From Buxus sempervirens (lineage: Eukaryota; Streptophyta; Magnoliopsida; Buxales; Buxaceae): a DNA stretch of 64,000 nucleotides. Below, in pieces: positions 11,436 to 37,755 of the stretch; within the stretch, counting starts at the first letter, position 1, and every line of letters starts with the position of its first letter. A model generated the notes under the pieces. It saw only the letters and a program-made list of their open reading frames with translations, ran no database searches and had not been told where the DNA came from. The stretch lies in assembly GCA_947561395.2 (NCBI GenBank), contig OX387184.1, positions 54,867,197 to 54,931,196 of the forward strand. Direction: 5' to 3'. Both the position numbers and the translations under genes were made by a program.

Positions 11436-11577
11436 GTATCCGGATTGAGTATCCGGATACAAGTACCCTTTCCCGTATCCGGATAGTCATACCGGATACG
11501 TGTGAGCCTTAGCGTATCCGGTACCATGTACCGGATACCTTAAGGCCCTTTGTTATCCGGTCTGATATACCGGATAC
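11436..11577. promoter_or_regulatory. TATCCGG/CCGGATA inverted-repeat module cluster in U3 (4 modules)
   Basis: Four short stem-loops start at about 11436, 11475, 11513 and 11553, a spacing of 38-40 bp. Each has GTATCCGG or TTATCCGG on the left, a 6-9-nt centre, and (AT)CCGGATAC on the right. They lie 150-300 bp upstream of the LTR TATA box. The same four are present in the 3' LTR (about 32374-32515). Confidence 0.9.
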
Positions 11578-11733
11578 CTTAAGTTTGCTCAAAATTAGGG
11601 TTTTCCGAGAGCTTTTCACTTTTACCATCATGTCCCTCATTAAATGAGGGGAAATCGCAGAAATAACCTTAGGGTTTAGGTTGGAGGGGTTCTAGACATT
11701 AAGTTGTGTCTACCAATGACCTTAGCCCTTGCC

Positions 11734-11741
11734 TATAAATA
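11734..11741 (+). promoter_or_regulatory. TATA box of the Tat/Ogre LTR
   Basis: TATAAATA in the context GCCTATAAATAGGAGCC. Transcription would be expected to start about 30 bp downstream, near 11765. The copy in the 3' LTR is at about 32672-32679. Confidence 0.75.
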
Positions 11742-13621
11742 GGAGCCTCCTCCTTGAGCAAATGGCACACAACTCTTGTTTTGAATTCTCGCAAAGAAGA
11801 ACTCCAAGAGAAGAAGAAAACCGCTGTGGAATCGCCTCCAGCACTCAGGTAAGCCTCAACTTTTCTTTTTATTTTCTGTCTTTACATTCCTAGATCTAGA
11901 TCTCTTCTTCTACCTTTCTGTAGTGTAAAGCCTTGTTTGTATGTGTGGAAATCCTTCCCCGGCTCAAAGTATCTCAAGACTCCCCTAGCCGTAAAACGTG
12001 AAGGCGGATCTAGGAGAAACGAGACTGGGGATTGACCCTAGTGCTAGAACCTATGTAGCATAAGGCCTTTTTGATTGATTGTAAACCGTTCCATATTCAA
12101 AGTACCCTTGATTATCTTAAAGAGAACAGAGGGAAACGATAATGGAACGGAACCCTAGGCTATGCTAGAACCTATTTTATTGAATCTATATGCATGTGTA
12201 TGGATCTTGCTAGGTTTTTTTCACTTTTGCACACATATCACTATTTTGGCGGGATAGGCTCATATTTGGGGTTTATTGCATTTATTGTGATAAAACTCAA
12301 ATAAATGGCCTCAATCAAATTCTGGAGTATTTTAAAATGTTTTTCAAAGGTTTTGGATTCATCTCACACAGATCACATACTTTTTGTCAATTTTCGGATT
12401 TGGTTTTACTCAAAAATGGCTTAGCTTGACAGCACCTGTACCCTTACTTCGGACGTCCGTAACTTCATCATCCGGATGAATTTTGGGGTGATTCCAGAAC
12501 CATGGGAAAGGTGAGGCTGTCTAGTTTATGTCCACCAAATTTCATGAATTTCTATCCAGCCGATTTTTGACACTTCTCTGTCGAAGTTAAGTGGACAGTT
12601 CAGGTCCAAGTACAGAACTTGTCACTTCGACGGACCGCCATGTGTTCGTTTTAAGTCCGATTCGAGTGATTTTTATTTCTGAGTACTCCTTTTTGAGTCT
12701 ATTTTCAAATCCAGTTGGTTTCATAATTTTTGGATTCCATTTGAATTATTGGTAGCCGATTTACTCAGAACTGCTCATTTGCATTTTTCTGGGTAAATCT
12801 GTGATCTTCGGGGCCTCTTCGGGAGACCACCCAAGGCACATCCGAAGGGATTTTTGTATGAGGCTAGTTTCTTTGGAAAGATGGCCATACAGACTTCAAT
12901 CACACCAAATTTCGTGGATTTCTATGTAGTGGATTTTTCTAGACAATTTTCCAAAGTTGCCCACTTACTACTTTTAAAAATCCCCAACAGCAACTTCAAA
13001 GGAGCATAACTCCTAGATTTTTCATTGGAATGAAGTGAAATTTTGCATGAGACTCTTATTTACCCTAATCTTTCAAATGGATTTGGTTTGGTTCAATTCA
13101 GAATTGGATTTGAATGATTCTAAGACAAAGGACCTTACTTTTTACCAAAATTCCTGGATTTGCCTCAACTTGGTTTTGGCCACTTTTACTTTGATTTCCA
13201 TCTTTTGAAATACTCCAGAAGTGATATTGACATAAGAGAAGATCTAAAATCCATTTGGATCTTCATGTGAAAATATCATACATTGTTCCTTTTTCAAGGC
13301 TTTTTCATGATTTTTAGCAAGCTTCTTATTTTTTTTTAGCATGAACATACACTAGGCAACCACTTCATGTGGATGAATGGGGGTGCCTAACACCTTCCCC
13401 CGTTCATAATCTAATCCCCTTACCCATCTCTGGATTTGATTTTCAAGTAGGGTTATTTTTACCCTAGAATTTGTCTTTTGGCTATTTTTGCTTATTTTGA
13501 ACTCTTTGGTGTCCATTCTCACCCCAAAATCATGAATGGTGGCGACTCTCCCAATTTTTGCGTTGAGCCCGTGTGTTGACGGAGGGACGATCACTCCGGT
13601 GATTTTTTCCCATGTCTCACA

Positions 13622-13643
13622 ACTGGCGACTCTGCTGGGGACT
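13622..13643 (+). other. Primer-binding site, tRNA-Arg type
   Basis: Immediately after the 5' LTR comes ACTGGCGACTCTGCTGGGGA. TGGCGACTC...TGGGGA matches the reverse complement of the 3' end of plant tRNA-Arg (...TCCCCAGTGGAGTCGCCA) with a couple of mismatches. tRNA-Arg priming is known for Ogre/Tat elements. Confidence 0.75.
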
Positions 13644-15141
13644 TGTGGATTTAAGTTTTTTTTGTATGTTCATGCTTTTTCTTTACTTTTTGAATGCTTG
13701 CTATTTTGTTTACTTTATTTGTGTATATTCTTGTATTTCAAATCAGATTGGGATGCTTTTGAATTTTATATGGATCAAGTCATGTATGTTTTGATTGATG
13801 TTGCCTAGAGAGTGATTTAGGAGAAGCCTATCTTGAAGCATGATTTTGATGCATTTGGTGATAACATGCTCTAATTTGAATTTTGAATACCATGGTTGGA
13901 ATATGAGAATTAGTATCATGAAATCTAGGAGTTCAGAATTTTTGGGTATTCAAACATGATTCCTATAAAGCATGCTTTTTTGTGCTTAAAAATTTTTTTT
14001 TTATGCCATGCCTTTGATTTAAGGTATAGGGGGATTCAATTTGAGCATGAAAACCAAGAGTATGAAATCTGGAATTTTAGTGCACATTGGGGTTTTTTTT
14101 AGTATGTTCACCAATATACCATGTCAAGTAGTTGCTAGACTTTTAGGCATTAATTTGGGGTATAAAGGATGCACTTTTGAGCATGAGAAATCTGAAAATT
14201 TTAGTGCATATTTCTGGAAATTTTAAGCATGTTTTACCTCATTGAAACACTTTGGTATCATGTCAAGTAGTGCTAAAATTTTAGGCTCCAATTTGGGGTA
14301 GAAATGGTACACTTTGATCATGAAAAAGAGCATGAAATCTGGGATTTTAGGGAATGCTTTTGAGTTTCAAGTATGCTTACATGATTTGATGGTTGTTTGT
14401 ACAAATGACATGTTTTGTATAACACTTTTTGGGCATGTAATATTTTGTGCATATTTAGTTGTTTTGGTGCTTGCTTGCTTGTATTTAGCTTCATTATCTT
14501 TGTCATTTGTACCTTGGCTTGAAATTGAATGCATGGCTACGAAAAAGAGTGGCAAGGGGCTAGGACGTTGTAAATGTTACCACAATTTAAAATTGCACTT
14601 GAGCACTTGAAACAATTTGCACAGCCTACCCTTTACCTATTAGGAAGTTGAACCATGAATGTGTGTAGCTTGGCGCACCGAGATCGTGACTTCGGAAAGC
14701 GAAAGTGAAAGCATTTACCTTAGAATTTGGGTCAATGATGTGATGACAATGGGATCTGTGATTCGATTCCGGGCATCACTAGACTTGAGTTCTAAGTTGC
14801 CAATTAAGCCAAAACCCAAAAACCATACGCTTGAAGGTGGAGAAACACGTTTTCGGCTAAAAGCACACAATTGCGTTTGGGGAATTGGGTGTAAATGTGG
14901 GAAGGCCGTTTGCATGTTTTACAGGCCAAGGTATAATGTGAATACCATATTGAATGAAGGTAATACAAGGTGGCAAGGTAAAGCCATGTTCTTTTCTTAA
15001 ATTTAAGGAATTTTGCAAGTATGATGTCCAAGCCCAATTTGGGGCAAGTTTTGAAGGTCAAATTAAGGTGAACATCAATTGGGAATGAAAATAAATCAAA
15101 TCTGGTGAAAAAATGAGTCAAAAAGGGCCATTTTGGCAATT

Positions 15142-15280
15142 ACCGGCAACTCAGGCCGGTTAATAATAACTGTATTCATATCCGGTACATATATCCGGAT
15201 ACAAAGACATATGCGCATATCCGGATAGATTGACCGGATACAATAAGGCATATCTTATCCGGTATATTATACCGGATACA
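15142..15280. promoter_or_regulatory. TATCCGG/CCGGATA module cluster in the leader (4 modules)
   Basis: ACCGGCAACTCAGGCCGGT (15142-15160) is followed by modules at about 15179-15202, 15216-15242 and 15254-15280, again about 38 bp apart. The first has the loop AACTCAG, which recurs in clusters at 27016, 31622 and 37649. Confidence 0.85.
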
Positions 15281-15587: not shown

Positions 15588-16790
15588 AAAAAAAAAAAAT
15601 GAAAACCTTGGTTGGTTATTTTTATCAATCAAATCAAAAAAAGTGGGACACTTGGAAGCCCTAGAATATTCCATGAAAACCTTGGTTGGTTATTTTTATC
15701 AATCAAATCAAAAAAAAAAAAATGAAAACCTTGGTTGGTTATTTTGTCAATCAAATCAAAAAAAGTGGGACACTTGGAAGCCCTAGAATATTCCATGAAA
15801 ACCTTGGTTGGTTATTTTTATCAATCAAATCAAAAAAAAAAATGAAAACCTTGGTTGGTTATTTTTATCAATCAAATCAAAAAAAGTGGGACACTTGGGA
15901 GCCCTAGAATATTCCATGAAAACCTTGGTTGGTTATTTTTATCAATCAAATCAAAAAAAAATGAAAACCTTGGTTGGTTATTTTTATCAATCAAATCAAA
16001 AAAAAAAATGAAAACCTTGGTTGGTTATTTTTATCAATCAAATCAAAAAAAGTGGGACACTTGGAAGCCCTAGAATATTCCATGAAAACCTTGGTTGGTT
16101 ATTTTTATCAATCAAATCAAAAAAAAAAATGAAAACCTTGGTTGGTTATTTTTATCAATCAAATCAAAAAAAGTGGGACACTTGGAAGCCCTAGAATATT
16201 CCATGAAAACCTTGGTTGGTTATTTTTATCAATCAAATCAAAAAAAAAAATGAAAACCTTTGGTTGGTTATTTTTATCAATCAAATCAAAACATTTGTGG
16301 GATACTTGGATAGAATATTCCAAGACACCTTTGGTTGGTTATTTTTATCAATCAAATCAAAACATTTGTGGGATACTTGGATAGAATATTCCAAGACACC
16401 TTTGGTTGGTTATTTTTATCAATCAAATCAAAACATTTGTGGGATACTTGGAAGCCCTAGAATATTCCAAGACACCTTTGGTTGGTTATTTTTATCAATC
16501 AAATCAAAACATTTGTGGGATACTTGGATAGAATATTCCAAGATACCTTTGTTTGGTTATTTTTATCAATCAAATCAAAACATTTGTGGGATACTTGGAA
16601 GCCCTAGAATATTCCAAGACACCTTGGTTGGTTATTTTTATCAATCAAATCAAAAAAAATTGGGACCCTTGGAAGCCCTAGAATATTCCATGAAAACCTT
16701 GGTTGGTTATTTTTATCAATCAAATCAAAAAAAAAAATTGGGACCCTTGGAAGCCCTAGAATATTCCAACACAAAATCAAAACAAAAAAA
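15588..16790. repeat. Composite tandem array in the leader
   Basis: Two building blocks alternate. One is a 46-50-bp block GAAAACCTTGGTTGGTTATT-TTTATCAATCAAATC followed by 7-12 adenines. The other is an approximately 35-bp block of the type TGGGACACTTGGAAGCCC plus TAGAATATTCCA. From about 16260 a variant (ACATTTGTGGGATACTTGGA, CAAGACACCTTTGG) takes over in units of about 80 bp, then the first form returns. More than 20 TTGGTTGGTTATTTTTATCA copies are present. The A runs vary most, as expected from slippage. Confidence 0.95.
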
Positions 16791-16963
16791 AACAAAAAAA
16801 AATCTGGATTGGTGTTCACCTAACCTACTGGTTTACATATATAGGGGTGTGACTCAAGTTAAATGGAAGCTAACATGTTCTATTCATTTTTTTTTCCTCA
16901 GGTACATTCAACCCAGGTACACTTGCAATCATTGCTCCAGTAACTAGATCCAAAGCCAGAACA

Positions 16964-19900
16964 ATGAATACTGAGGAGAACCAAGCCCAAGCTACCGTCC
17001 CTGCTCAGGACTTTACTCAACTGCAGGAGCAAGTGGCCGGTCTGGCCAAAATGCTGGGGGACCTACTGGCGGCTCAAGCCCAACAGGCCCAAGCCCCGAA
17101 CCAGGCATCTACTTCCCATCAGGCACCACCACCTCAGGCCTACATTCCGCCTCCGGTTCAGCCCATGCCTGAGCCCATTTCTGAATCAGTCCCTGAACCC
17201 ATTCTGATCAGGGAAAATATGGCGGAGTCTGAGAAAGAGCTGGAGAAAGAAAAGGCCCGAGATGAGATGGAAAAGAAGATGCTGCTCAGGATAGAGAGGA
17301 TCCAGGCAGAGCTGAAGGAAGTGAAGGGGGGAGGTAGCCATGCAGGCACCACCTTCGAGGACCTGTGCATGTACCCGGACGTCTGTCTACCGGCTAAGTT
17401 CAGGTGCCCGGATTTTGACAAGTTTGATGGCACGGGCTGCCCATTAAGCCATCTGAAACTATACTGCGGGGCCCTGTGCCAGTTTGGCCGGGACGATGGA
17501 ATACTGATCCAGCTCTTCCAGAGGAGTCTGACCGGGTCAGCCCTTCGGTGGTTCGCTACAGTGGACCATGGAAGGATTAGAAGGTGGAAGGACTTGGCCG
17601 ATGCTTTCCTGGACCAGTACAAGTTCAACTCTGAGATCGTGCAGGACCGGTACGACATGATGAGGATGACCAAAGGCAAAGATGAGCCGGTACGGCAGTA
17701 CGCCAAGAGATGGAGAGAGGCCGCCTCCCAGGTCAGGCCACCTATGCAAGAGCCGGAGATGATCTCCACCTTTATGGGCACACTGGGGCAGCCCTTTTAC
17801 AACCATCTGGTGGATCAGATCACCACCAACTTTGCAGCCCTGGTACAGGTAGCGGACCGGATCGAGGAAGGGGTCAGGTCAGGACGGCTGATAGACTACT
17901 CCACTCTGACTGGGCAGTCTGAGTCCTCTGCCTCCATGGCCCAGAAGAAAGGGGCTGGGTTTAAAAAGACGGGGGCCCGAAAAGAAGGGGAGGTGAACCT
18001 GGTCCAGGCTCCTCCAGCCAAGAAGCCACTGCACGTCAGCATCTCTGCACCCCAACAGGCCCAGCAGTCGTACCAGACCCCGATGAATGTCAACTTCTCT
18101 CCTTCAGTGCCAGCTAACACAAGGAGGACTTTTTCTAAGGAGGAGCGGGATGCCTGGTTCGCAGCAAGAAAGAACCGGGTTTTCACCCCTCTACCCATAT
18201 CGCTGTCCCAACTACTGCCAACCCTGCTGAAAGGGGAATACTTGACTCTGAAGGAGCCTAACCCAAATGCCCCGAAGGGGAGAAATTTTGACACATCGGT
18301 CACCTGTGATTTCCACATGGGTGCACCGGGGCATTCTACCGATACCTGCTGGGTATTGAAGCATGCGGTCCAGGACCTGTTGGACCAGAAGGCCTTGGTG
18401 TTCAACACTGCTGCACCGGCCCCGTCCGGGAATGATATTGGGCAGAACCCTCTGCCTTACCACAATGGGGCAGGCCCATCCAACTCCATCACTGCCATAT
18501 CCACCACCAGAAGGGCCTTTGACCCATCACAGCTTATAGCACCAGTAGGAACCACTGTCCAGGTCCGTTTCTTCCAAGAAGAGGAAGAGGAGGAGATCAA
18601 CATGGTCTCCCAAAAAAATAATCTTGCTGCTGAGGACATAAGTTCCTCTCTAAACCGGGTCTCTTCACTTATGGCCCAGATGAATACTGCAAGGCCCCCA
18701 TTGGTCTTCAATTGCAGTCCATCCATTTGCTCACCATCCAGGCCGTCTAAGGCTCCACTGGTCATCAACCTTGACCCCACCACTGCTTCCATCACTTCTT
18801 CTGTCCCCACAAATTCCAAACTTCAACCCCTGGTTGTAAATGTGCAGCCAGCCCATACTATCCCTAAACCGGCCCATACATCCCGGTCCAAACTCCAGCC
18901 ACTAGTGGTTAACATCCCTAAACTAGCCTATTCTGAGGCTGCTGTACCATGGAATTACAGCGAGGGAATCACGGCTACGGTTCCAATGGCCAGGAACCAG
19001 AACCAGGAGGAGGTGAACCTCATGACGAGGTCAGGGAGATGTGCAGGGGGTGAAGAGAAAGAGAAAGAGACAGAAGTAGAAAAAGAAAAAAAAGAAAATG
19101 AAGAAAAAAGAAAACAGAAAGGAAAAAATAAAGTAGGAGAAGACACCCCCCAGGGTGCAGAAAATGAGGCAGCAGACTTCATAAAAATAATAAAGAAAAG
19201 TGAATTTAATCTTGTGGATCAGCTGAACAAGGTCCCGGCCCAGATTTCAATACTGGGCCTTTTGCTGAATTCTGAAAAGCACAGGGATGCATTGTTAAGG
19301 GTGCTACAGAGTGCACATGTATCCCAGACAATTGATCCGGACCAGCTTGGTAAAATGGTTGGTCAAATCTTGTCACATAATGTGATAAGTTTCTCAGAGG
19401 GAGAGATCAGCCCAGGTGGGCGTTATCATGTAGACCCTTTGCACATCACTGTGCTTTGTAAGGGCTGCATGGTTGCACGGGTTTTAATTGACAACGGGTC
19501 AGCATTAAACGTTTGCCCGTTAATCACTTTTACCAAGCTGGGTCTGGACCAGTCAAGGATCAAAAGAAATGGGCGGATAGTAAGGGCTTTTGATAGCTCC
19601 AAGACCCACTCCCTAGGGGAGATTGAACTGCCGGTCACAATTGGGCCGAATATCTTTAACATCACATTTGAAGTGATGGATATACCCGCAGCCTTCAATC
19701 TGCTCCTAGGAAGGCCGTGGATACATTCGGCTAGGGCAATACCATCCACGCTCCACCAAAGGGTGAAATATGTAAGAGGGCAAAGGGTGATAACAGTCCT
19801 AGCCGAAAACTTGGTGCCGCCCATTGTGTCACCTGATGTACCATTAATCAATGTGGACTTGACTGTCGACAAGATTGCATTCCACTCATTTCAATTTGAG

Positions 19901-20659
19901 GCGGTAAATTACATACATGGGGGGTGTGAGAAAAAGAAAGAAAAGGGGACCACTGCGGAAAAAATGGTCAAGAAAGTGATGGAGAAATACCACTTTCACC
20001 CAGGGAAAGGCCTGGGGATCAATCTGCAGGGGATGGTGGAGCCAATCACGGCTAAGAAACTGATCCCCAAGGTAGGGTTGGGCTTCAAGCCCAGAGGCTG
20101 GAGAAGAATGAAGCACGAAGAAGGGGTGAGCAGAAGCAAAGGAAAACTCCCTCATTTAAGGGAAAGTTTCCCTAAACCCGCTTATATAATCCAAATTTCT
20201 CCTCCTATGGACCAATCAAAACCTCCCTATTACAATGTCAACCCATTTCAAAAGCCTTCTGTTTCGGCCCTACAACCCTATAACCCATCTCCAATACTGG
20301 GAGCAGTGGATGGGCCTGGACCACCGCCCGAGCAGCAGGTGGACTTTTCGGAAGATGTTGGTGCATTCTTCGCCATGACTGAGGGCGAAAAGACAGGGGC
20401 AGACATGGGACTGCCATTCATTGATTGGGCCGCAGTAAAGATTCCAGACAAGGTCATTTCTGGATTGGGCCCCGCAGCAGAAAAGGGCAGTACCCACCCG
20501 GTGATGATGGCATCGGATGCTGGGCTTGAGGAGCAGGCTTTCCCTATTTCCCCTGCTCCCCAAAATTTTGTACTGAACAATTGGGAGGAAACTCCCCTTA
20601 CCTTTGAAGCAGCGTTAGTTCGGCAAACTGACGTGGCTTCCAAAAAAAAACTCCAATAG
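16964..20659 (+). CDS. gag-pro: Tat/Ogre gag-protease polyprotein (1,231 aa)
   Basis: ATG 16964, MNTEENQAQATVPA. Order along the protein: a Gln/Pro-rich N-terminus with a coiled-coil stretch (about residues 85-125), a retrotransposon gag domain (about 135-320, CPDFDKFDGTGCPLSHLKLY, RSLTGSALRWF), a short Cys/His segment near 450 (CDFHMGAPGHSTDTCW), a long Ser/Pro/charged linker with a Lys/Glu tract near 690-720, a retropepsin-like protease region (about 830-950, ending in NLLLGRPWIHSARAIPS), and a G-patch-like stretch (about 1005-1045, FHPGKGLGINLQGMVEPI). The protease plus G-patch order is characteristic of the Tat/Ogre lineage. The 1,231-residue length is large but normal for this lineage. 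Confidence 0.93.
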   Translation: MNTEENQAQATVPAQDFTQLQEQVAGLAKMLGDLLAAQAQQAQAPNQASTSHQAPPPQAYIPPPVQPMPEPISESVPEPILIRENMAESEKELEKEKARDEMEKKMLLRIERIQAELKEVKGGGSHAGTTFEDLCMYPDVCLPAKFRCPDFDKFDGTGCPLSHLKLYCGALCQFGRDDGILIQLFQRSLTGSALRWFATVDHGRIRRWKDLADAFLDQYKFNSEIVQDRYDMMRMTKGKDEPVRQYAKRWREAASQVRPPMQEPEMISTFMGTLGQPFYNHLVDQITTNFAALVQVADRIEEGVRSGRLIDYSTLTGQSESSASMAQKKGAGFKKTGARKEGEVNLVQAPPAKKPLHVSISAPQQAQQSYQTPMNVNFSPSVPANTRRTFSKEERDAWFAARKNRVFTPLPISLSQLLPTLLKGEYLTLKEPNPNAPKGRNFDTSVTCDFHMGAPGHSTDTCWVLKHAVQDLLDQKALVFNTAAPAPSGNDIGQNPLPYHNGAGPSNSITAISTTRRAFDPSQLIAPVGTTVQVRFFQEEEEEEINMVSQKNNLAAEDISSSLNRVSSLMAQMNTARPPLVFNCSPSICSPSRPSKAPLVINLDPTTASITSSVPTNSKLQPLVVNVQPAHTIPKPAHTSRSKLQPLVVNIPKLAYSEAAVPWNYSEGITATVPMARNQNQEEVNLMTRSGRCAGGEEKEKETEVEKEKKENEEKRKQKGKNKVGEDTPQGAENEAADFIKIIKKSEFNLVDQLNKVPAQISILGLLLNSEKHRDALLRVLQSAHVSQTIDPDQLGKMVGQILSHNVISFSEGEISPGGRYHVDPLHITVLCKGCMVARVLIDNGSALNVCPLITFTKLGLDQSRIKRNGRIVRAFDSSKTHSLGEIELPVTIGPNIFNITFEVMDIPAAFNLLLGRPWIHSARAIPSTLHQRVKYVRGQRVITVLAENLVPPIVSPDVPLINVDLTVDKIAFHSFQFEAVNYIHGGCEKKKEKGTTAEKMVKKVMEKYHFHPGKGLGINLQGMVEPITAKKLIPKVGLGFKPRGWRRMKHEEGVSRSKGKLPHLRESFPKPAYIIQISPPMDQSKPPYYNVNPFQKPSVSALQPYNPSPILGAVDGPGPPPEQQVDFSEDVGAFFAMTEGEKTGADMGLPFIDWAAVKIPDKVISGLGPAAEKGSTHPVMMASDAGLEEQAFPISPAPQNFVLNNWEETPLTFEAALVRQTDVASKKKLQ

Positions 20660-23600
20660 TGGAATGCCATTTCCCTGAAGGTTCTAATGGGCCTTCATCT
20701 TCAGGGGAATTATGTTTAGAAGGCCCACAAAAAACCCAAAAAGATTTTTCTATTTTTTCTAGAAAATTTAATTTTTTCAAAGAGGTCCAAACCACTTATG
20801 AACCATATAATCAGACCGAATTGGACCGGGTTGAATATGACTTCGACCTTGAGCTCGACTTTGATCTCATGGGGGTCGAAGAAGAGACCGAGGTCGAAGA
20901 AGAAGACGTTCCAAAAGAAATTGAATACCAATTGGAACGTCATGAAAAGGGGGTCCAACCTAATATTGAGGAGACCATATCCATAAATCTTGGGACCAAA
21001 GAGGACCCAAAAATTGTGAAAATCGGGTCATGCTTGTCTGATGTGCAGAAAATTGAAATGTCACAATTCTTGGCAGATTACAAGGATGTGTTTGCTTGGT
21101 CGTATCGGGACATGCCGGGGTTGGACACTGACATGGTGGTGCATAAGTTGCTGATTTTATCAGGGGTTAAGCCAATCAAGCAGAAGCTGAGAAGATTGAA
21201 ACCTGAGTGGACTCTGAAGGTCAAGGACGAAGTGGTCAAGCAGTTCCAAGCTGGATTTCTGGCAGTCTCTACGTACCCAGAGTGGCTCGCGAACATAGTG
21301 CCGGTACCGAAGAAGGACGGGAAGGTCCGAATGTGCGTGGATTATAGAGACTTGAACAGGGCAAGCCCAAATGACGATTTTCCGCTTCCACACATCGACA
21401 TTCTGGTCGATAATACTGCGGTACATAGCCTGTTTTCCTTCATGGATGGGTTCTCAGGATATAATCAGATCAAGATGGCTAAGGAAGATCAAGAGAAAAC
21501 AGCATTTATCACACCTTGGGGCACATTTCACTATACAGTCATGCCGTTTGGGCTTAAAAACGCTGGGGCGACATACCAGCGGGCCATGACAGCATTATTC
21601 CATGACATGATCCATAAGGAGATGGAGGTCTATGTGGACGATATGATTGCCAAATCCTGCAGAGAGGAGGACCACTTGATCAATCTGAAGAAAGTGTTTG
21701 ATCGGCTCAGGAAGTACAGCCTACGGCTTAACCCAGCTAAATGCGTCTTTGGGGCTACATCGGGGAAGTTACTTGGGTTTATAGTGAGCCGAAGAGGAAT
21801 TGAAATCGACCCGGCTAAAGCCAAGGCCATAATTGAAATGCCAGCACCCAGAACTGAGAAGGAGGTCAGGGGTTTTCTTGGAAGGATTCAATACATAAGC
21901 CGGTTCATAGCACAGCTCACTGCTATCTGTGAACCAATTTTCAAACTTCTAAGGAAAGATAACCCGACGGTCTGGAATGAGGATTGCCAGCAGGCATTTG
22001 ATACAATAAAGAGGTATTTACTGAACCCACCGGTACTAGTGCCACCAACTCCAGGAAGACCACTGATCCTGTACTTGTCAGTGTTGGAAACGTCAATGGG
22101 ATGTGTCTTGGGGCAGCATGATGAGACTGGTAGAAAAGAAAGGGCCATTTACTATCTGAGTAAAAAATTCACGGAATATGAAGCCAAGTATTCACCATTG
22201 GAAAAGACTTGCTGTGCTCTAGTGTGGGCAACTCAGAGGCTAAGGCATTACTTCCTTAATCACTCCACACTATTGATATCCCGGATGGACCCGCTGAAAT
22301 ATTTATTTGAGGAACCGGCACTGACTGGCAGGACGGCAAAGTGGCAACTGCTACTGTCCGAATTTGACCTCACATACATCACCCAGAAGGTGATCAAGGG
22401 TCAAGCCATAGCTGATCACCTGGCTGCACATCCTTTGCCAGAATATCAACCCTTGAAGACCAACTTCCCAGATGAGGCAATTCTGTACACTAAAGAGGAG
22501 GAAAATGAGAGTTCTTGGCAGATGTTCTTTGATGGGGCCGCCAATATGAATGGGAACGGAATAGGGGCAGTCTTGGTTAAACCAGATGGTTCACATATCC
22601 CAATTGCAGTAAAGCTGAGATTCCAGTGCACCAATAACATAGCAGAATATGAGGCATGCATAATTGGATTGCAAGCAGCCATGGATCATGGAGTAGAGGA
22701 ACTTGACGTATACGGGGATTCGAGTCTTATCATCTTCCAAACAACTGGTGAGTGGAAAACCAAGGATCACAAATTGATCCCCTATCACCAGTATTTGGAA
22801 GAAATAAGCACAAATTTCACTCGAATTTCCTTCAACTATATGCCAAGGGCCAAGAATCAGTTTGCGGATGCTCTAGCAACCTTGGCTTCAATGGTCAGCA
22901 TACCAGAAGGAGTAGACATCAGACCACTGGAAATTGAGGTCCGAGATGAACCGGCTTACTGTCTCGTTCTAGAGGGAGCACCAGAAGAAGAAGCACCATG
23001 GTTTCAAGATATCAAAAATTTCTTGAACAGTCGGAGTCTACCAGAAAATGCCACTGCTACTGAGAAGAGGACAATACAGAGATTGGCTGGTCAATTTCTG
23101 CTAAGTGGTGGACATGTGTACAAGAGATCACATAACGACATTCTGCTCAGATGTGTTGCCAAGGCTGAATCAGAAAGGCTGATTGAGACTGTACATGGAG
23201 GAGTTTGTAGGCCCCATATGAGTGGGCACATGCTGGCTAAGAAGATCCTGAGGCTGGGATACTACTGGACAACCATGGAGCATGATTGCTGTATACATGT
23301 CAGGAGGTGCCATCAATGCCAAATCTATGCAGATAACAAGCATGCACCCCCAGGTGAGCTGCACAACATGACATCACCCTGGCCCTTCTCTATGTGGGGC
23401 ATAGATGTCATAGGCATGATCTCCCCTAAGGCATCGAACGGACACAGATTTATCTTGGTAGCGATTGATTACTTCACTAAGTGGGTGGAAGCAGCATCAT
23501 ATGCAAATATCACAAGCAACCATGTTATTAAATTTTTGAAGCACAGTATCATTTGTCGCTATGGGCTGCCAAGTGCCATAGTATCAGACAATGCTTCAAA

Positions 23601-26886: not shown

Positions 26887-26997
26887 TGGATTGGACGGGA
26901 GCAAGCTAGAACTCAAGAGGAGGAAGAAAAAGGCGAAAAGGGGGTTTCTAAACTCAAAAACTCGTAAAAAATACTCAAATCCCGAGGCAGGTTGCAT

Positions 26998-27368: not shown

Positions 27369-30046
27369 CTATACAGGATCATCCCCGTGTCCTCGGCCGC
27401 GTCCACCTCTACGGCCTCTCCCCCAAAGTGCTCGGCCTCTAGAGTATGCAAGGATCCGCTCGGCTGCATGACGGGGATGCCGACCTACCACCTGCTGAAG
27501 ATGATACTCCAAGCAATAATCCTCGAGATCTGGGGGAGGAGCAGGAGTAGAATCTGGGGAAGAAGCCTCGGGCTCAGCAGCAACCGGCCCAACTGGGCCC
27601 TCATCCAAAGCATCCTCTGCTCCCGCAGCTCCAGAAGGCCCAGCATCAGCAGCAGAGGGGCCAGGATCAGAAGTAGCTGAGTCCACAGAAAAGAGAAAAA
27701 TCAGAAGACTCAGATATAAGGAAGAATAAAAGAGAAGAATTAAAAGAAGATCATACCAGGAATGTCTGCAGAAGGAGCCGGAGGATCCGGCTCGTCAAGA
27801 CCAGCCGCTGGGGCATCCTCGGGATCAGAGGCCCGAGCAGGAGATGGATCAGGAATCAGGAAATCATGCTCAAAGAAGGCATCCTGATCATGGACCGGGC
27901 CCTGCACAAGTCAAACAAGCATATCAGAATAGCAGAAACAAGAAAATAATGAAAGAAATGAACATATGAGAAGGCCAGATACCTGTCTAGACTGAAGCTC
28001 AGCAACTAAGGCCTCCAGCTCCCTGATCCGGGCATCCCGCTGGGCCACGACCGCATCGTGCTCCGCGATCATATCATCGATCGCAGCCCGCTGACTCTCA
28101 AACCGGTCCCGGATGGTATTCAGCTCGTGTACCTGCCAACAAGAACAGAAGAAGGGTCAAAAATGCATAAAAAAAAAAAAAGAGGGATGAAAATATAGAG
28201 AGTATAAGACTTACGGTGTCCTCATGGATCCGGATACGGATCCCGCCGATCTCAGTCACCCCGGCACGAGTGGGTCGATCCATCAAGCATCCAATAGACA
28301 CCCTCTGGAACCACTCGTCGTAATCTCCGGCTACTGTGAGCCCCTCTGCATCCAGGAAATGATCGAACTGATCTACATCAAAACCTGGGAGGAGTGTGTC
28401 GGGACCCACAGGAGGAGGAGGGACGGGGATGCGAAGTGCGCTGGTGTGCTAGAAGTACAGGCGCTCTCCTAAGTACATCACCCTACCAAGCCTCCCGAGG
28501 AAGCACTGGTAGGGCTGACGTCGTCGATCTCTATCGAAGGCGTCTTGTACCGCCATCTCACGAGCCACCCCAACATCCACGTCATCAAATCGGGATAGAA
28601 GGAGCTGCAAAAAAAGGAAACTGTCAGGTACAGTCAAAATACAGGAAAGGAAAAGGAAAAGATAAAAGACTTACATCAGATCGGCGGGCACGGTCTAAGT
28701 GCACCCGGGCAGTACGAGGCTGGCTCCTGTCGGCATCTCGAACCTGGGCCGACCATCGCAGGGCCACAGGAAAATCCACAACCTCAGGAACCGGGGAGGG
28801 GCGGAAGAAGGTCATGTAGGTGTACATGAACACCTAACAAAGGAAAAATCAGTCAAGAAAAGATAAAGCCTAAAGAATTAAGCCAGACAGATGAATGCAA
28901 TACCTGTAGAATCTGCCAGAAGAACCGGCTGCTAACTCCATCACCTCTCGGAGATGCTAAGCCTCGAACCGCTCGGCACAGCCCGGCCAAGATGGTCCCA
29001 TAGATGAGCCGACCCCATGCTAGCTGGCGGGTCAGATGGAGATCTCTCAAAGCGTCCAAAAAGAGCGGACTGACACCGGTAGTATCCTCCGGGAAGAAGC
29101 AGCTCCCCAGCATCAGCAAGAATACGTGCCGGAAAATAGGAATAAATGCAGCATCATCCACAGCCACAGTCCTGTGTCTCCCCTCAAAATGTCGAGCCAG
29201 ACTCTCCCGCAGCCAACTAATGGAGAGCCGGCCACTCCGCCCATCCCAAGCAGTAGGAGGCAGGGCCTGATATCCCAAAAGAAGTCCCATATCCTCCGCA
29301 GAAGGCCGCTCCAAGACAATGGTCCGCCCCGTCAGAGGAATGCCCGTAATCATCACGAAATCGGAGGGGCGGATCCCCAGCTCCACGTCCGGCAGATAGA
29401 ATGACTGCGTCTCTGGGAAATATCTCTCCATCATGGCAAAAATAAGCGGACGATCGGCTCTGAAGGATGGGATGCTAAGAAAATGGTCCAGGTGGCACCT
29501 CCCAAACTCCCGCCGGAGTGCTGGAGAAAGCGACTGAGCTAGATCACTAAATCTGCCCCAGCTATCTCGTAAGTGGGAGGAATGGTACGGAAGTGGCACA
29601 TCTGCCCTGATGCACATAGAAGGATGGCTATCCAAGCCATGGAGGAGCTCGGTATCATGCACAGAGGCCCTAAACTCCTCAGAGACCCCTGCCAGAGCTA
29701 CAGCAACCCCCTCCGGAGCCGTATCTCTGGCTCTGCCTCGGCCTCTGCCACGGCCTCTCTCGCCCTCAGGGGCCTGATCCGGAACTCTGCCTCTGCCTCG
29801 GCCTCGACCACGAGCGGGTGCAACCACGGGCTGAATTGCAAAGGAACAGTGTGAAGATTTGTGTACAAGGGAGAATGAAGAGAGAAAGGAAAATTTTTGG
29901 AAGCCTACCTCAGCAGAACTCTCTCGGGAGACATCTAGCAGCTCCGACAGAGTGGCGCTGGAACTCGCCTCTGTCCGAGCCCGCGAACTGGAGGGCTGAT
30001 CAGCAGGGTCAACCTCCTCACGAACACGGGAACGACTCCTAGCCAT
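27369..30046 (-). CDS. Antisense gene A in the Tat/Ogre element: plant mobile domain (PMD) protein
   Basis: Minus strand, start MARSRSRVREEVDPADQPSS at 30046. The first block ends near 29909 at a GAG|GTAGGC site. The main block (about 29830-28904) has an RG-rich repeat (RGRGRGRV, RGRGRGRGRA) and then a PMD region: SFYLPDVELGIRPSDFVMIT, GRTIVLERPSAEDMGLLLGY, LRESLARHFEGRHRTV and YGTILAGLCRAVRGLASP. Smaller open blocks with splice-like borders follow at about 28833-28675, 28604-28450 and 28400-28205, then a coiled-coil region at about 28130-27990. The last block (to 27369) ends in a Gly/Arg-rich tail (GRGRRGGRGRGHG). It resembles the MAIN/MAIL1 (PMD) family, members of which occur both as host genes and inside transposons. 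Exon limits are approximate. Confidence 0.7.
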
Positions 30047-31615
30047 CTATCCAGGGAAGTGTTTTATAAATTTCAGATCAAATTTATTTGGAACCCTACT
30101 TTGCTCAGTTCAAATTGAAAAAAAAATTTCACTTTGATTTTATAAGTTCTAACTCTGGTTCATCTGGAATCTTATTAAAATTTTCAGGAATTGTGGTTCG
30201 GTTCAAAGTCTTTTAGAAAATATTTCTACATTTTTCACAAGGACTAATAGCTGATAATTTACTGTAGGATGGTTACATTGGTGCAAAAGCAAATGGGCGG
30301 ACCTAAATCAAGGATCGGAATAAACTGTGGAACCCGGGGAGGGGGGAGCCAGTCAAGGAAAAGTCTTGGCAGTCGAAGCATCATTTTGGTCAGAGATCAG
30401 ATCAAGGAAAGGTCAATCATAACATGGTGAAAACAGTGGAAAGTTATATAGCCCAATGGAAAATGTCGATCCGCCTCAGAGGAAACACTGGCCAAGAATT
30501 AGCAAGACAAATTACAGAACAGCAGGGCATCAATCAGGAATTAGAAGCAGAGAAGAAATTACAGTCCAGAGCATCATACATAAAAAATAAAAAAAAACAT
30601 GTTCCTACAGTGGAAATTCAGTGGGCAGCATATCAGAAGCATAGTATCATGCAATTCAGTGCGATGTTTTCAAGCAATGGACAAGTTTAGGGTGATGCCA
30701 TGGCTTCTGCCATCAATTGGAGTTTATCAAGAGAAAATCAGGAGGTCAACAATTGGATAGAAAAATATTACCAACAGACAAAAATCTGGCTAGACAAATT
30801 GAGAAGAAACAAACAATAATGTCAGCAATTCATAAAGAATCAGAAGCAGCCTGAATGCAGAATTTGAAAGTCATTCGTCCAATACTCTAAGCATGCAACA
30901 GGTATCAACAATCCAGCATGATAGAAAAAGCCAAAGCATGGGAAAAGGCATGCCTGGAGATAGCATTAAAATGTTACCTCCAACTGGATACAAGTCAACA
31001 TTTTTGCAAGCATAGATTCGGCAATACAAGATTTCAAGAAATTGTCTACCAACAAGAAAGAAGCATCACATGGCTAAAATTAGAACAAAAGGATAAATCA
31101 AAGCATGTGGCAATTATAGACATGTATCCGAAATCCTGACAAAGCAAGTATCTCAATGCAGGATGAGCAATTCAATTCCCAATCAAGCAACTGTGTTACA
31201 CATATCAATGAGTGACAAGGCCGAATGGTGTTAACCACAAAATCTGTTATTCGTTCAAATCAAACAGGAATTGGTTCATAAGGAAAGGTTAAGTATGAAT
31301 TCACTAACCTGAACGAATGGAATTGAATCAAGGATAGGTCACAAGCACAATCGCCCAAAAGTTGGCGCTCCCAGCAGCTAGAAAATCCTCAAAAATGGGC
31401 TAGGGCTCGACTGCTACTGTAAATGGGCAAGGAATGAGTGTTGCCGGAGCAAGGAGCAACCGCCGGCAGCAATAGACGTCGCCGGAGCTACTGGAGATCG
31501 CCGGAAAAGCCAGACGAGTCGTCGGGGACGAGGACAAGAGCTTAGGGCCGGTCTGAGTAATCGGAGCAAGAAGAAAGAAGAGGAAAAGTCGCGGTCGCGC
31601 GCGACTTAAGTAAAC
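30047..31615. other. Upstream region of antisense gene A
   Basis: About 1.6 kb with no recognisable coding sequence. Positions 31430-31610 are GC-rich with repeated CCGGCG/CGCCGG motifs, the look of a 5' untranslated leader for a minus-strand transcript. 30270-31330 is AG-rich and unremarkable. Confidence 0.45.
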
Positions 31616-31618
31616 CTG

Positions 31619-31685
31619 CGGGATCCGGATACTCAGGCCGGATACCCGCAGACCCTGTATTATCCGGATACACTTACCGGATACT
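31619..31685 (-). promoter_or_regulatory. TATCCGG/CCGGATA module pair upstream of antisense gene A
   Basis: Modules at about 31622-31647 (ATCCGGATACTCAGGCCGGATAC) and 31659-31684 (TTATCCGGATACACTTACCGGATAC), 37-38 bp apart. They lie directly upstream, in minus-strand sense, of the GC-rich leader-like stretch. No obvious TATA box lies between. Confidence 0.75.
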
Positions 31686-32283: not shown

Positions 32284-34558
32284 TGTAGACACCCCAAATT
32301 GCACAAACAATCATAAAAAATCATTATCTCCTGGAAAGCCAGCACAGAATTTGAAGAAAATAAACTTTTACCTGTATCCGGATTGAGTATCCGGATACAA
32401 GTACCCTTTCCCGTATCCGGATAGTCATACCGGATACGTGTGAGCCTTAGCGTATCCGGTACCATGTACCGGATACCTTAAGGCCCTTTGTTATCCGGTC
32501 TGATATACCGGATACCTTAAGTTTGCTCAAAATTAGGGTTTTCCGAGAGCTTTTCACTTTTACCATCATGTCCCTCATTAAATGAGGGGAAATCGCAGAA
32601 ATAACCTTAGGGTTTAGGTTGGAGGGGTTCTAGACATTAAGTTGTGTCTACCAATGACCTTAGCCCTTGCCTATAAATAGGAGCCTCCTCCTTGAGCAAA
32701 TGGCACACAACTCTTGTTTTGAATTCTCGCAAAGAAGAACTCCAAGAGAAGAAGAAAACCGCTGTGGAATCGCCTCCAGCACTCAGGTAAGCCTCAACTT
32801 TTCTTTTTATTTTCTGTCTTTACATTCCTAGATCTAGATCTCTTCTTCTACCTTTCTGTAGTGTAAAGCCTTGTTTGTATGTGTGGAAATCCTACCCCGG
32901 CTCAAAGTATCTCAAGACTCCCCTAGCCGTAAAACGTGAAGGCGGATCTAGGAGAAACGAGACTGGGGATTGACCCTAGTGCTAGAACCTATGTAGCATA
33001 AGGCCTTTTTGATTGATTGTAAACCGTTCCATATTCAAAGTACCCTTGATTATCTTAAAGAGAACAGAGGGAAACGATAATGGAACGGAACCCTAGGCTA
33101 TGCTAGAACCTATTTTATTGAATCTATATGCATGTGTATGGATCTTGCTAGGTTTTTTTCACTTTTGCACACATATCACTATTTTGGCGGGATAGGCTCA
33201 TATTTGGGGTTTATTGCATTTATTGTGATAAAACTCAAATAAATGGCCTCAATCAAATTCTGGAGTATTTTAAAATGTTTTTCAAAGGTTTTGGATTCAT
33301 CTCACACAGATCACATACTTTTTGTCAATTTTCGGATTTGGTTTTACTCAAAAATGGCTTAGCTTGACAGCACCTGTACCCTTACTTCGGACGTCCGTAA
33401 CTTCATCATCCGGATGAATTTTGGGGTGATTCCAGAACCATGGGAAAGGTGAGGCTGTCTAGTTTATGTCCACCAAATTTCATGAATTTCTATCCAGCCG
33501 ATTTTTGACACTTCTCTGTCGAAGTTAAGTGGACAGTTCAGGTCCAAGTACAGAACTTGTCACTTCGACGGACCGCCATGTGTTCGTTTTAAGTCCGATT
33601 CGAGTGATTTTTATTTCTGAGTACTCCTTTTTGAGTCTATTTTCAAATCCAGTTGGTTTCATAATTTTTGGATTCCATTTGAATTATTGGTAGCCGATTT
33701 ACTCAGAACTGCTCATTTGCATTTTTCTGGGTAAATCTGTGATCTTCGGGGCCTCTTCGGGAGACCACCCAAGGCACATCCGAAGGGATTTTTGTATGAG
33801 GCTAGTTTCTTTGGAAAGATGGCCATACAGACTTCAATCACACCAAATTTCGTGGATTTCTATGTAGTGGATTTTTCTAGACAATTTTCCAAAGTTGCCC
33901 ACTTACTACTTTTAAAAATCCCCAACAGCAACTTCAAAGGAGCATAACTCCTAGATTTTTCATTGGAATGAAGTGAAATTTTGCATGAGACTCTTATTTA
34001 CCCTAATCTTTCAAATGGATTTGGTTTGGTTCAATTCAGAATTGGATTTGAATGATTCTAAGACAAAGGACCTTACTTTTTACCAAAATTCCCGGATTTG
34101 CCTCAACTTGGTTTTGGCCACTTTTACTTTGATTTCCATCTTTTGAAATACTCCAGAAGTGATATTGACATAAGAGAAGATCTAAAATCCATTTGGATCT
34201 TCATGTGAAAATATCATACATTGTTCCTTTTTCAAGGCTTTTTCATGATTTTTAGCAAGCTTCTTATTTTTTTTTAGCATGAACATACACTAGGCAACCA
34301 CTTCATGTGGATGAATGGGGGTGCCTAACACCTTCCCCCGTTCATAATCTAATCCCCTTACCCATCTCTGGATTTGATTTTCAAGTAGGGTTATTTTTAC
34401 CCTAGAATTTGTCTTTTGGCTATTTTTGCTTATTTTGAACTCTTTGGTGTCCATTCTCACCCCAAAATCATGAATGGTGGCAACTCTCCCACTTTTGCGT
34501 TGAGCCCGTGTGTTGACGGAGGGATGATCACTCCGGTGATTTTTTCCCATGTCTCACA
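32284..34558 (+). repeat. 3' LTR of the Tat/Ogre-type element
   Basis: TGTAGACACC...GTCTCACA, about 99.7% identical by eye to the 5' LTR, including the four modules, TATA box and splice-donor-like site. Followed by the TSD GAGGG at 34559-34563. Confidence 0.95.
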
Positions 34559-35788
34559 GAGGGTACCTTAGTGTTTCAAGGGATTCACCTTAGTCATTCT
34601 AAGGGGGTAAACTTTAGATAAGCTTAGGGGGTGTACCTTAGTTATATTGAGGAGGGGTACTTAGTTATAGAAGGGGTGTACCTTAGGTACATCTAAATAA
34701 TACGAGGAGGATGTACCCTAGGTAATATAAGGGATATACCTTAGGTATGTTTGAGGTACTTTAGTGATATAAAGGGGGTACCTTTAAGTAATACAAGGAG
34801 GGTATACCCTAGGTAATATAAGGGATGTACTTTAGGTATATTAGAGATACTTTAGTGATATAAAGGGGGTACCTTAATTGTATAAGGGGTTATACCTTAG
34901 GCAAAACAGTGGGGGGTTACCTTACTTATATAGAGATTACTTTAGTTAGACAAAGGGGGTACTTTGGCTATATAGGGGGTGTACTCTAGATAAAACAGTG
35001 GGGGTACCTTACTTATATGAGAGGAGTACCTCTAGGAAATACAAGGGGTGTACCCTAGATAATGTAAGGGATGTATCTTAGTAATATAAGGGGGTACCCT
35101 AGCTATATAAGGGAATGTACCTTAGGTAAACAAGGGGGTACTTTAAGTAAGACAGTAGGGTAATTTAGTTAAAATAAAAGGATACCTTAGGCAATACAAG
35201 TGAAGTACCTTAGGTATAATTAGGGGGTACTTTAGGTATTCGAATGAGGTACCTTGGCAAAACAGTGGGGTACCTTAGCCAATATGAGTGAGGTGCCTTA
35301 GGTAATATAAGGGGGTACTTTAGGTATACATGTGGGGTACCTTAGGCAAAACAGTGTTGTACCTTAGCCAATATGAGTAAGGTGCCTTAGGTAATATAAG
35401 GAGGTATTTTAGGTATACATGTGGGGTACCTTAGGCAAAACAGTGGGGTACCTTAACCAATATGAGTGAGGTACCTTAGGTAATATAAGGGGGTACTTTA
35501 GGTATACATGTGGGGTACCTTAGGCAAAACAGTGAAGTACCTTAATCAATATGAGTGAGGTGCCTTAGGTAATATAAGGGGGTACTTTAGGTATACATGT
35601 GGGCTACCTTAGGCAAACACAAGATGATACCTTAGGTAAACACAGGGGTACCTTAGGCAATCACAAGGGGATACCTTAGATGAACACAGGAGTACCTTAG
35701 GCAAACACAAGAGGATACCTTAGATAAACAGAGGGGTACCTTAAGCAAATACAAGGGGATACCTTAGACAAACACAGGGATAAAGGGA
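34559..35788. repeat. GGTACCTTAG satellite, block 2, with a ~91-bp higher-order unit
   Basis: Continuation of the outer-LTR satellite. Basic units of about 20-30 bp carry GGTACCTTAGG. From about 35245 to 35605 four copies of a ~91-bp higher-order unit follow in order: GGTACCTTAGGCAAAACAGT, then CAATATGAGTGAGGTGCCTT, then AGGTAATATAAGGGGGTACT and AGGTATACATGTG. After 35605 a shorter form (ACCTTAGGCAAACACAAGGG) takes over up to the solo LTR. Confidence 0.92.
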
Positions 35789-36174
35789 TGAGGGTTCTGC
35801 GGGCGGTCAAACTTAAAGAAGAGCCGAAAGTTGACTTTTCCTCGAACCCCGTGCCAAGTGCCTAGCCTTATGACATTGGATAAAGGGATCCGATACAAGT
35901 CTAACGCAATTGAGTTTGCTCAAATCGGAGTTCGGATGAAGGAGATATGAGCTATCGAAGTTTCCAAGCAGCAAAACCAGAAGCTGCACACGTGGCGCAT
36001 AAACTGCACACATGGCAGCCAACGCAGCGAAATATCTCGGGGACTAAATCTCAAATATCCAAAATCTGCTAAAAATCCCAGGGACTAAACTGAAATTCGC
36101 AGGGACCAATCTGTAATTACTCAAAAGTGTCGAATCGGTCAAGTCAAAGGGCAAATCGGTGATTTTTCGATTTG

Positions 36175-36420
36175 TATCCGGCCAAATATGCCGGATACAC
36201 TAGCTCCCTTTCATATCCGGACTCAAATGCCGGATACAAGGAGATTTCCGCACGAGATTCGCGCCGATCGCCCGACAAATTCGCGGCGGCATTTAATTTT
36301 CGGATGATTATGTTTTGTATCCGGCATTGAATACCAGATACAAAGGAAGACCTATGTAACCGGCCATGGAGGCCGGATATGAAGAGTATTTAGTGTATTC
36401 GACCTGAGTTGTCGGATACA
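36175..36420. promoter_or_regulatory. Module cluster in the solo LTR, directly upstream of its TATA box
   Basis: Five modules at about 36175-36199, 36213-36239, 36320-36345, 36356-36381 and 36395-36420, with spacings of 38, 37 and 39 bp inside the two subgroups. Cores vary (TATCCGG..GCCGGATA, AACCGG..CCGGATA, TTCGACCTGAGTTGTCGG) but the inverted-repeat plan is kept. The TATA box follows within about 10 bp. Confidence 0.8.
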
Positions 36421-37648
36421 TTAAGTTTGTCTATAAAAAGGAAACAGCAGCTCATTTCCGGGGGCTGGCTTTTTTGGCTTGATTTTAAACTTTGTCTCCC
36501 AGTTTCCTCCCCTCGAATCCTTCCTCCTTCAACCCCTCTTGCCCTCCATCACCTCCCCACACCACCCCAAGGCACTACACCCTCCCCCCATCTTCCTCCT
36601 CATCACTTGCACCCCAACATAAGAAGGAGCTACTGCTGTTGCTGTCAAGAGGGAGAGCTTCCAGCAGCTGTCCTACATCCAGGAAGTGCATCCACACTGC
36701 CTAAGCACCCAAGGACCATCAGGTGAGACTCCTTGACATGTTGGTTTATACATATATTAAAAAGAGAGTTTTCCATAAAAGTTCAATGAAGTTTTGCTTC
36801 TACCCAGCACATATCTGTTTTAGTGAGCTCTTGCATGCGTTTTCTTCTGTCTCTTGGTAGCATGGGGGTCTCCAAGGGTAATGGAGACCCCATGCACGAC
36901 CCTAGGGGAGGGTGAGAGTCTTTATTACTCCATTTTTTGCCACTATTTTAGCATAAATATGTCTATTTTAAAGGGGAACTTGTTCCCTCATGCTAGCCTC
37001 CCATGTATCCTTACGTAATCCCCCTCCTCTTCCCTTCTTCAGGTAGTTCTGTTCCCTTGCTTACGATAGTCTAAAAATTCCTAGTCTTAGGTATTGGTGA
37101 CGCATGCTTCGTAGTCGCAAGTTCCCCTTAAAGCCTTGTTTTAATGTCTTTTTTTTGTCACTATCGGGTGTGCCATGTTTTTGCATGCATGTTCGTGTTT
37201 TTTTGAGCACTAGAGAAGCACCCACAAATCTTGCATGATCTGTTCTATCCATATTGGTTCATCGGTCTTATGCTTTGTCTATACGTATTTTTGAGCATGC
37301 ATGTATACATGCTTTACATCTCCTTTTCTCGGTCTTGTTGTGTTTATATTGGTTCTCGACTAGTCGGTGTCAATTTTTAAGCTTGCGGTTGGTGAAACTT
37401 CTAAGACCCAGCAGGGATACCTTGATCCCTGCTTTAATGGTATACACGATCCAAAAGCAGAGGAGGCAAACTCAATGCCTCCTCTCTCTCTCTCCGGTTA
37501 AGAAAGCCCCCGAAAGAGACCAAAAGCAAGCCCATCCCCTACCCTGAACCACTGTGGGCCCACACAGGGGCCCACCCAGTTACCAGAACATCCCAAGAAG
37601 CCCAAAAACCCAACCCCAAGGCAAACATCCGAAAAACAGGCTTCTGTA

Positions 37649-37755
37649 GGTTGATCCGACAACTCAGGCCGGATCAACAGAACCCCATGCGTAGCCGGCG
37701 AAAGATGCCGGATACACTGTATCTTGTGTGTAACCGGCATCCCAAGCCGGCTACA
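37649..37755. repeat. Second module cluster in the solo LTR (3 modules)
   Basis: Stems at about 37649-37677 (GTTGATCCG..CGGATCAAC with ACAACTCAGGC loop), 37689-37715 (GTAGCCGG..GCCGGATAC) and 37727-37753 (GTAACCGG..GCCGGCTAC). The period is again about 39 bp and the stems have diverged compensatorily. The cluster lies about 1.2 kb downstream of the TATA box. Confidence 0.75.

Follow-up and report, generated by a model that had tools for sequence, protein, structure and literature searches.

Phased two-fold symmetric modules as candidate operator arrays in a Tat/Ogre-like retrotransposon and a solo LTR of Buxus sempervirens

Why does the same short inverted repeat recur, in phased clusters, near the promoters of two neighboring retroelements? 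The locus is a 64-kb stretch of the Buxus sempervirens genome (the window), and all results concern this one window and sequence data only. The window contains a complete long terminal repeat (LTR) retrotransposon at 11346-34558, best read as a Ty3/gypsy element of Tat/Ogre-like type, and a solo LTR of a second, related family at 35786-38706 (plus strand; ends approximate, placed by eye; no internal region). With a probability of about 0.7, the repeats are promoter-proximal DNA operator arrays that would bind a dimeric factor and co-regulate the LTR and two antisense genes for plant mobile domain (PMD) proteins.

The pattern TATCCGG-N(4-14)-CCGGATA has 18 exact matches in the 64 kb, made up of 14 distinct matches and four in the near-identical 3' LTR. 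Dinucleotide-preserving shuffles (n = 100) gave 0.00 matches. The gap is exactly nine bases (N9) in 18 of 18, though 4-14 were allowed, and the module is a 23-bp unit with arms GTATCCGG-N9-CCGGATAC. Eight degenerate N9 modules with one to three arm mismatches (2a, 4a, 6c, 6d, 6e, 7a, 7b, and 7c) lie in register with these, for a total of 22 distinct modules in six distinct clusters (26 modules with the 3' LTR copies). A loose scan (up to four mismatches, gaps of 5-13) is non-discriminating alone, with 123 matches in the window and 74-108 in ten simulated sequences. The ten sequences have 0-2 matches each at up to two mismatches and 3-11 at three, and the three-mismatch modules 2a, 6e, and 7a are counted only because they are in register. 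Four two-mismatch matches outside the clusters (1995 with N10, 17372 with N11, 25343 with N9, and 37838 with N5) are left uncounted.

The LTR cluster (11437-11576, plus strand) is composed of modules L1-L4, which start at 11437, 11476, 11515, and 11554 with a period of 39 bp; its copy in the 3' LTR (32375-32514, plus) is identical in every letter. Cluster 2 (15140-15278, minus; starts at 15140, 15179, 15218, and 15256) is located in the leader between the LTR and gag. Cluster 3 (27016-27154, minus; 27016, 27054, 27093, and 27132) lies directly upstream of antisense gene B, and cluster 4 (31622-31683, minus; 31622 and 31661) lies upstream of the inferred leader of antisense gene A. The solo LTR carries cluster 6 (36175-36418, plus; 36175, 36214, 36318, 36357, and 36396) and cluster 7 (37653-37753, minus; 37653, 37692, and 37731). 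Start-to-start intervals are 39 bp in 13 of 16 cases, 38 bp in two, and 104 bp in one. Among exact modules only, they are 39 bp in seven of nine and 38 bp in two, which is the stricter figure because degenerate modules were accepted partly by register. A preliminary description of this DNA had listed seven clusters in two different elements, and all seven are found where it placed them or a few bases off. Its modules are real, but their size of 19-28 bp becomes 23 bp with a fixed nine-base loop, and their period of 37-40 bp becomes 38-39 bp.

A regular period and locally clustered copies are also features of a neutral minisatellite produced by slippage or gene conversion. True minisatellites occur in the window, and cluster 3 is among the arrays reported by Tandem Repeats Finder (39-bp unit, 74% matches). 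Conservation within the clusters, however, falls on the arms. In the complete element (14 modules, 3' LTR copies excluded), the arms have a mean pairwise identity of 0.96, the loops one of 0.39, and the linkers 0.30-0.33, where base composition predicts 0.26-0.29. The eight solo LTR modules give 0.82, 0.44, and 0.33-0.34, and comparisons between the two elements give 0.89, 0.31, and 0.29-0.34. High arm identity is partly a matter of construction, since the arms served to find the modules, and this counts against reading too much into it. More telling are the fixed gap and period, given that the letters of loops and linkers are almost free. Loops and linkers differ widely between modules in both elements, and the clusters are not made of homologous repeat units. 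When the complete and solo LTRs are aligned, one stretch of 64 bp (73%, E 1e-5) covers two modules; the other four pieces listed have E values of 0.07-0.8. A slippage-derived array confined to one copy is not what is seen, as the arms are kept in two elements while loops and linkers are not, and a neutral minisatellite is very improbable.

The arrays are directional. A loop reading CTGAGTT or CTGAGTA is present in modules 2a, 3a, 4a, 6e, and 7a (7, 7, 6, 7, and 7 of 7 matches, respectively), and the other loops are free. It occurs in five of the six clusters, always in the terminal module and always reading towards the end of its own array; the chance of such placement in five clusters is 1/480, computed after the pattern had been seen. 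In three of these five clusters the terminal-loop end faces an assigned start, recognized by a TATA box for gene B and the solo LTR and by eye for gene A. The TATAAAT box of gene B (26996-27002, minus) is 13 bp from module 3a, and the TATAAAAA box of the solo LTR (36432-36439, plus) is 13 bp from module 6e. At both promoters N2-TTAA-N6-CTATAAA follows the terminal module. Under random placement of six array ends, P is 0.0018 for two lying within 20 bp of a TATA box and 6.5e-5 for the same gap, again calculated after the fact. Polarity in the linkers is weak, with CTTT just before the module on the upstream side in 7 of 22 cases vs. 3 of 22 on the downstream side. The fixed nine-base gap, the polarity, and the 13-bp TATA spacing go beyond the preliminary description, as does the precedent discussed below.

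Several observations weigh against a common promoter function. The LTR cluster departs from the pattern, in that the loop of its proximal module L4, TCTGATATA, and that of distal L1 each match CTGAGTT at five of seven positions. Its TATA box, TATAAATA (11734-11741, plus), is 157 bp downstream of L4; the bases after L4 read TTAAGTTTG as in the solo LTR, but TCAAAAT stands at the place where the TATA box is expected. No TATAAA is found within 250 bp of cluster 4, and the gene A start was assigned by eye. For clusters 2 and 7, two of the six, no adjacent promoter was recognized, and both would point leftward. The flank shared by gene B and the solo LTR could also be explained by local duplication. 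The preliminary claim that clusters stand before promoters is thus sustained for the LTR, the solo LTR, and gene B and, by eye, for the leader-like start of gene A; it does not extend to clusters 2 and 7. These two also bear on another explanation, in which a host protein uses the modules as an insulator, or as a boundary where sense and antisense transcription run against each other. Clusters do lie between opposing units, and leftward polarity with no recognized promoter suits a boundary. The tight TATA spacing in two clusters better fits a promoter site, and an insulator role is improbable.

A two-fold symmetric site is favored by the way in which the arms vary. Departures from the arm consensus number 15, spread over eight modules. 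Both arms are changed at four positions, and in three of these the new letters match (position 3 of 2a, position 7 of 6e, and position 1 of 7a). Shuffling of right arms over all 22 modules puts change in both arms at P 0.00014 and the same change in both at P 0.0024. The pair count, which includes the flanking G-C pair, gives four pairs with a both-sided change (0 of 500 shuffles) and six further pair types (5 of 500), fractions that are not to be taken as probabilities. Paired cells make up 90% in the true alignment and 5-40% when the arms are slid. An excess of compensatory change was expected from the preliminary description, and it is borne out across the module set. Of the examples offered there for changed arms with kept pairing, GATCCG/CGGATC (7a) does pair, whereas TAGCCGG/CCGGATA (7b) and AACCGG/CCGGCT (7c) mismatch at position 3. 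The symmetry argument has its own weak points. Within the eight degenerate modules only, P rises to 0.02 for both arms changed and 0.05 for the same change. Two of the four both-sided pairs come from 7a, so that the signal rests on three modules. Counted as cells, the four both-sided changes are equaled in 6 of 500 shuffles, and in 10 of 22 modules the flanking G and C positions do not pair.

Symmetry extending through the loop, as a full 23-bp dyad, is not significant across the 22 modules (38 of 88 cells, P 0.07). Modules 2d, 3c, and 3d are perfectly symmetric to the centre. Loop position 8 alone is symmetric in 14 of 22 (P 0.003), but it gives P values of 0.15 and 1.0 within families and was set aside.

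Paired changes above shuffles are equally what would be expected if the modules were stem-loops in the sense RNA, with a role in packaging, stability, or small-RNA production. All 22 modules can fold as RNA, with energies of -7.1 to -17.4 kcal/mol (plus strand, 29-base pieces), and palindromic LTR regions of maize Sireviruses are said, in work by Bousios and others from 2016, to matter for small RNA and methylation. Yet the arm sequence itself is kept rather than pairing alone, and 7 of the 11 varied positions are changed in one arm only. This stronger retention of letters than of pairing suits a DNA dyad more than an RNA stem. Two promoters have the array upstream of the TATA box at a fixed distance, where it would lie outside the RNA started there. 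The window has no Rfam match at gathering thresholds, which also counts against RNA hairpins. This explanation is a long shot, and a DNA operator recognized by a dimeric factor, one of the possibilities in the preliminary description, appears to fit best.

In the complete element, CpG content speaks for the operator reading. The CpG observed/expected ratio is 1.28 in the LTR cluster (11 CpG) vs. 0.22 (2 CpG) in the remaining U3. Clusters 2 and 3 have ratios of 1.62 and 1.29, and the leader has 0.34, all on small counts. The solo LTR shows little contrast, which counts against the operator reading, as ratios of 1.07, 0.97, and 0.99 in the clusters compare with 1.0 in the upstream U3; the ratio after the TATA box is 0.34. 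Raised CpG would follow from selection on the arms or from low methylation. A rival explanation is anti-silencing, in which the PMD protein from gene A or gene B docks on the modules and removes DNA methylation or prevents it, in the manner of VANC proteins. The arrays lie at promoters of the element itself, the two antisense genes stand under the same arrays, and the arrays in the complete element retain their CpG. VANC proteins bind arrays of short motifs in noncoding DNA and strip methylation, as the accessible text of two accounts has it (PMC5735166, PMC10398659). VANDAL elements, which are Mutator-like elements (MULEs), also have accessory genes of their own. Their motif is nine bases long, lies in one orientation inside tandem repeats, and is family-specific, and VANDALs are DNA transposons, according to the portion of PMC5735166 at hand. 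One-orientation motifs within homologous tandem repeats are not what the modules present. VANC target regions are also reported to diverge fast, whereas the module motif is common to two diverged families. For host PMD proteins, the available part of PMC9899485 treats contact of the PMD complex with chromatin as unknown, and the PMD-linked 'DOWN' motif that it gives, CATGCAGTTT, differs from the module arms. This motif is not enriched in the window, with 5 matches (up to one mismatch) vs. 5.8 expected. Structure prediction failed for both PMD open frames; the AlphaFold models, from single sequences, are unusable, with mean predicted local distance difference test (pLDDT) scores of 42.8 and 41.5. 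Anti-silencing docking is unlikely.

The nearest known kind of sequence is the repeated motif (RM) box of Sirevirus LTRs. Each of 13 Sirevirus elements carries 8-32 copies of the palindromic RM, and the consensus has a CGG-CCG core in 12 of 13 forms, whose CGG and CCG stand 4-6 bases apart by our count from Table 3 of the accessible text (PMC2829016). In the same source, RM precedes the conserved TATA box and, in the nine elements that have an envelope gene, that gene as well; it marks CpG islands, and elements with very little similarity overall carry near-identical motifs. In Citrus the RM consensus is AATCCGGCTWRCCGGATT, and its ATCCGG/CCGGAT arms are those of the modules (PMC2829016). The complete and solo LTRs of the window likewise have a repeated, dyad-symmetric CGG-CCG motif in a cluster upstream of the TATA box, 13 bp from it in the solo LTR and 157 bp in the complete LTR. 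The likeness extends to CpG in the complete LTR (1.28 vs. 0.22) but not in the solo LTR (1.07 and 0.97 vs. 1.0). Sireviruses are Ty1/copia elements, whereas the element here has the Ty3/gypsy Tat order, with a second RNase H and then integrase, and where RM has a gap of 4-6, the modules have nine bases whose sequence is free. The available text of PMC2829016 does not describe, for RM, a constant period of 39 bp, a terminal module set apart from the others, a TATA box at 13 bp, or arrays at antisense PMD genes, all of which are features of the window. That text calls RM Sirevirus-specific, with 'classic' Ty1/copia elements as the comparison set. Judged by their letters and layout, the modules are a variant of the Sirevirus-type motif in another retroelement superfamily, set apart by a gap that is wider and fixed, by strict phasing, by the polarity of the end module, and by their presence at antisense genes. 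Among the matches listed in a search of open-licence literature, which consist mostly of titles and abstract openings, no description of such arrays in Tat/Ogre elements is found. A literature text search for the arm letters likewise gives nothing relevant among the matches listed, by title and abstract start.

Under the operator reading, each module would be a site read by a dimeric sequence-specific protein that touches both arms and merely spans the loop. Two to five sites, mostly 39 bp apart, would be occupied side by side by one factor as a short cooperative array. The last module, with its asymmetric loop (C/T)CTGAGT(T/A), would give the array its direction, and in the two promoters that are best preserved N2-TTAA-N6-CTATAAA comes next. 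The sense LTR promoter and both antisense PMD genes are preceded by the same array, so one factor may set all of them together. It would most likely act as an activator, since the arrays are just upstream of TATA boxes. The factor is a little more likely to be host-encoded than made by the element, given that two strongly diverged families share one motif and that this motif resembles those of Sireviruses; LBD or MYB-related proteins are possible candidates. The PMD products had been put forward as binders in the preliminary description, and this idea is not supported here; both AlphaFold models are useless, and the motif tied to host PMD proteins is a different one. The fuller version of it is rather unlikely. 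In that version, one antisense PMD protein encoded by the element, or its complex, occupies phased CGG-N9-CCG dyads in three places, namely the LTR, its own antisense promoter, and that of its sister gene, closing a feedback loop between sense and antisense expression, with the same dyad logic in the unrelated Ty1/copia Sireviruses.

The operator reading matters for genes whose function and control are open. Antisense accessory genes are common in Tat/Ogre and Retand elements, as far as the accessible text of two accounts goes (PMC6317226, PMC11963269), and a shared, precisely built cis site would be a direct handle, with module DNA as bait for the factor. In Retand (TRP28) and in Ogre elements with PMD, such genes lie between pol and the 3' LTR as they do here; a regulatory role is proposed for the antisense DNA-binding candidates of Retand, and the portions available describe no cis site that joins LTR and antisense promoters (PMC11963269, PMC6317226). 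If Ty1/copia Sireviruses and Ty3/gypsy Tat elements do both use a CGG-CCG dyad, it may mark a host factor exploited by two large lineages. Alternatively, the two lineages may have converged on one way of controlling promoters in plant genomes that carry CpG methylation.

A functional comparison can be made with human T-cell leukemia virus type 1 (HTLV-1), which is an animal retrovirus and whose 21-bp repeats are not known to be a dyad of the module kind. Three Tax-responsive repeats in its LTR are promoter control sites, and antisense transcription starts from the 3' LTR, according to the accessible part of PMC5775265. Other collections were searched directly. A two-module pattern has no match in viral contigs, and the LTR promoter (11400-11780) has none in plasmid DNA. 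In genome contigs the two-module pattern occurs at two loci, one inside a short tandem repeat of bacterial DNA and one a single match, both unrelated by eye. A Lachnospiraceae contig (L002:420-490) has a tandem TTTTATCCGGATA repeat that is unrelated to the plant modules by eye. By their descriptions, the virus, bacterial, archaeal, and plasmid collections contain no plants, so these searches are silent on recurrence of the module.

The complete element has LTRs of 2276 and 2275 bp with TG...CA ends, at 11346-13621 and 32284-34558 (both plus), and a target-site duplication, GAGGG, at 11341-11345 and 34559-34563. The two LTRs are 99.65% identical (seven mismatches and one gap), and the module cluster is free of all eight differences. 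A gag-bearing open frame, taken from stop to stop (16874-20659, plus), has a Retrotrans_gag match and a G-patch match (E 3.5e-06). The pol frame (20632-24246, plus) encodes reverse transcriptase (RT), RNase H, a second RNase H (RVT_3), and then the integrase core, with RT_RNaseH at residues 474-578, RVT_3 at 633-751, and rve at 918-1015. RVT_3 would be an archaeal-type RNase H. The second RNase H thus stands between RNase H and integrase, and antisense PMD open frames follow 3' of pol. In the part of PMC6317226 available, the pol domain order is the one given for the Tat-clade elements Ogre and Retand of angiosperms, and PMD is present in 57% of Ogre elements.

Antisense gene B (25191-26997, minus) is composed of an open frame at 26056-26997 with a PMD/DUF7745 match and one at 25191-26090 with no Pfam match, which is presumably a later exon; the exon joins are inferred. 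Antisense gene A (28853-30046, minus) is a PMD open frame, identified by domain search, with an RG-rich stretch. Its inferred 5' leader (31308-31600, minus), placed by eye and pyrimidine-rich by eye, is followed by a donor-like CAG|GTTAGT, and the ATG is at 30046. The RG-rich repeats (RGRGRGR; 29723-29815, minus) are near the start of the gene A protein and may form a nucleic-acid-binding stretch. A PDB sequence search with one PMD frame product gave no match. With the gene A protein, three weak matches to ribosomal protein S10 fall around the RG-rich stretch (E 0.42-0.92) and are taken as composition.

Other repeats are present in and around the elements. A 22-bp minisatellite of GGTACCTTAG type occupies 11146-11342, 34562-35767, and 38707-39300; it borders both the complete element and the solo LTR, and both appear to be inserted in it. 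A GGTGGCGACTC motif near the 3' end of the solo LTR is the same as in the complete LTR. In the latter, TTAGGGTTT stretches at 11595-11604 and 11669-11680, between the modules and the TATA box, are what we take to be telobox-like sequences. The leader has a tandem array at 15589-16773, between cluster 2 and the gag-bearing frame, built of 47-, 71-, and 121-bp units with AAAACCTTGGTTGG. The gene content of the window, which includes F-box genes with FBA domains, PMD, and DUF4283, marks it as plant DNA. A repeat family of 130-180 bp, which by eye resembles miniature inverted-repeat transposable elements, occurs in both orientations at 42792-42975, 53427-53561, and 58941-59320.

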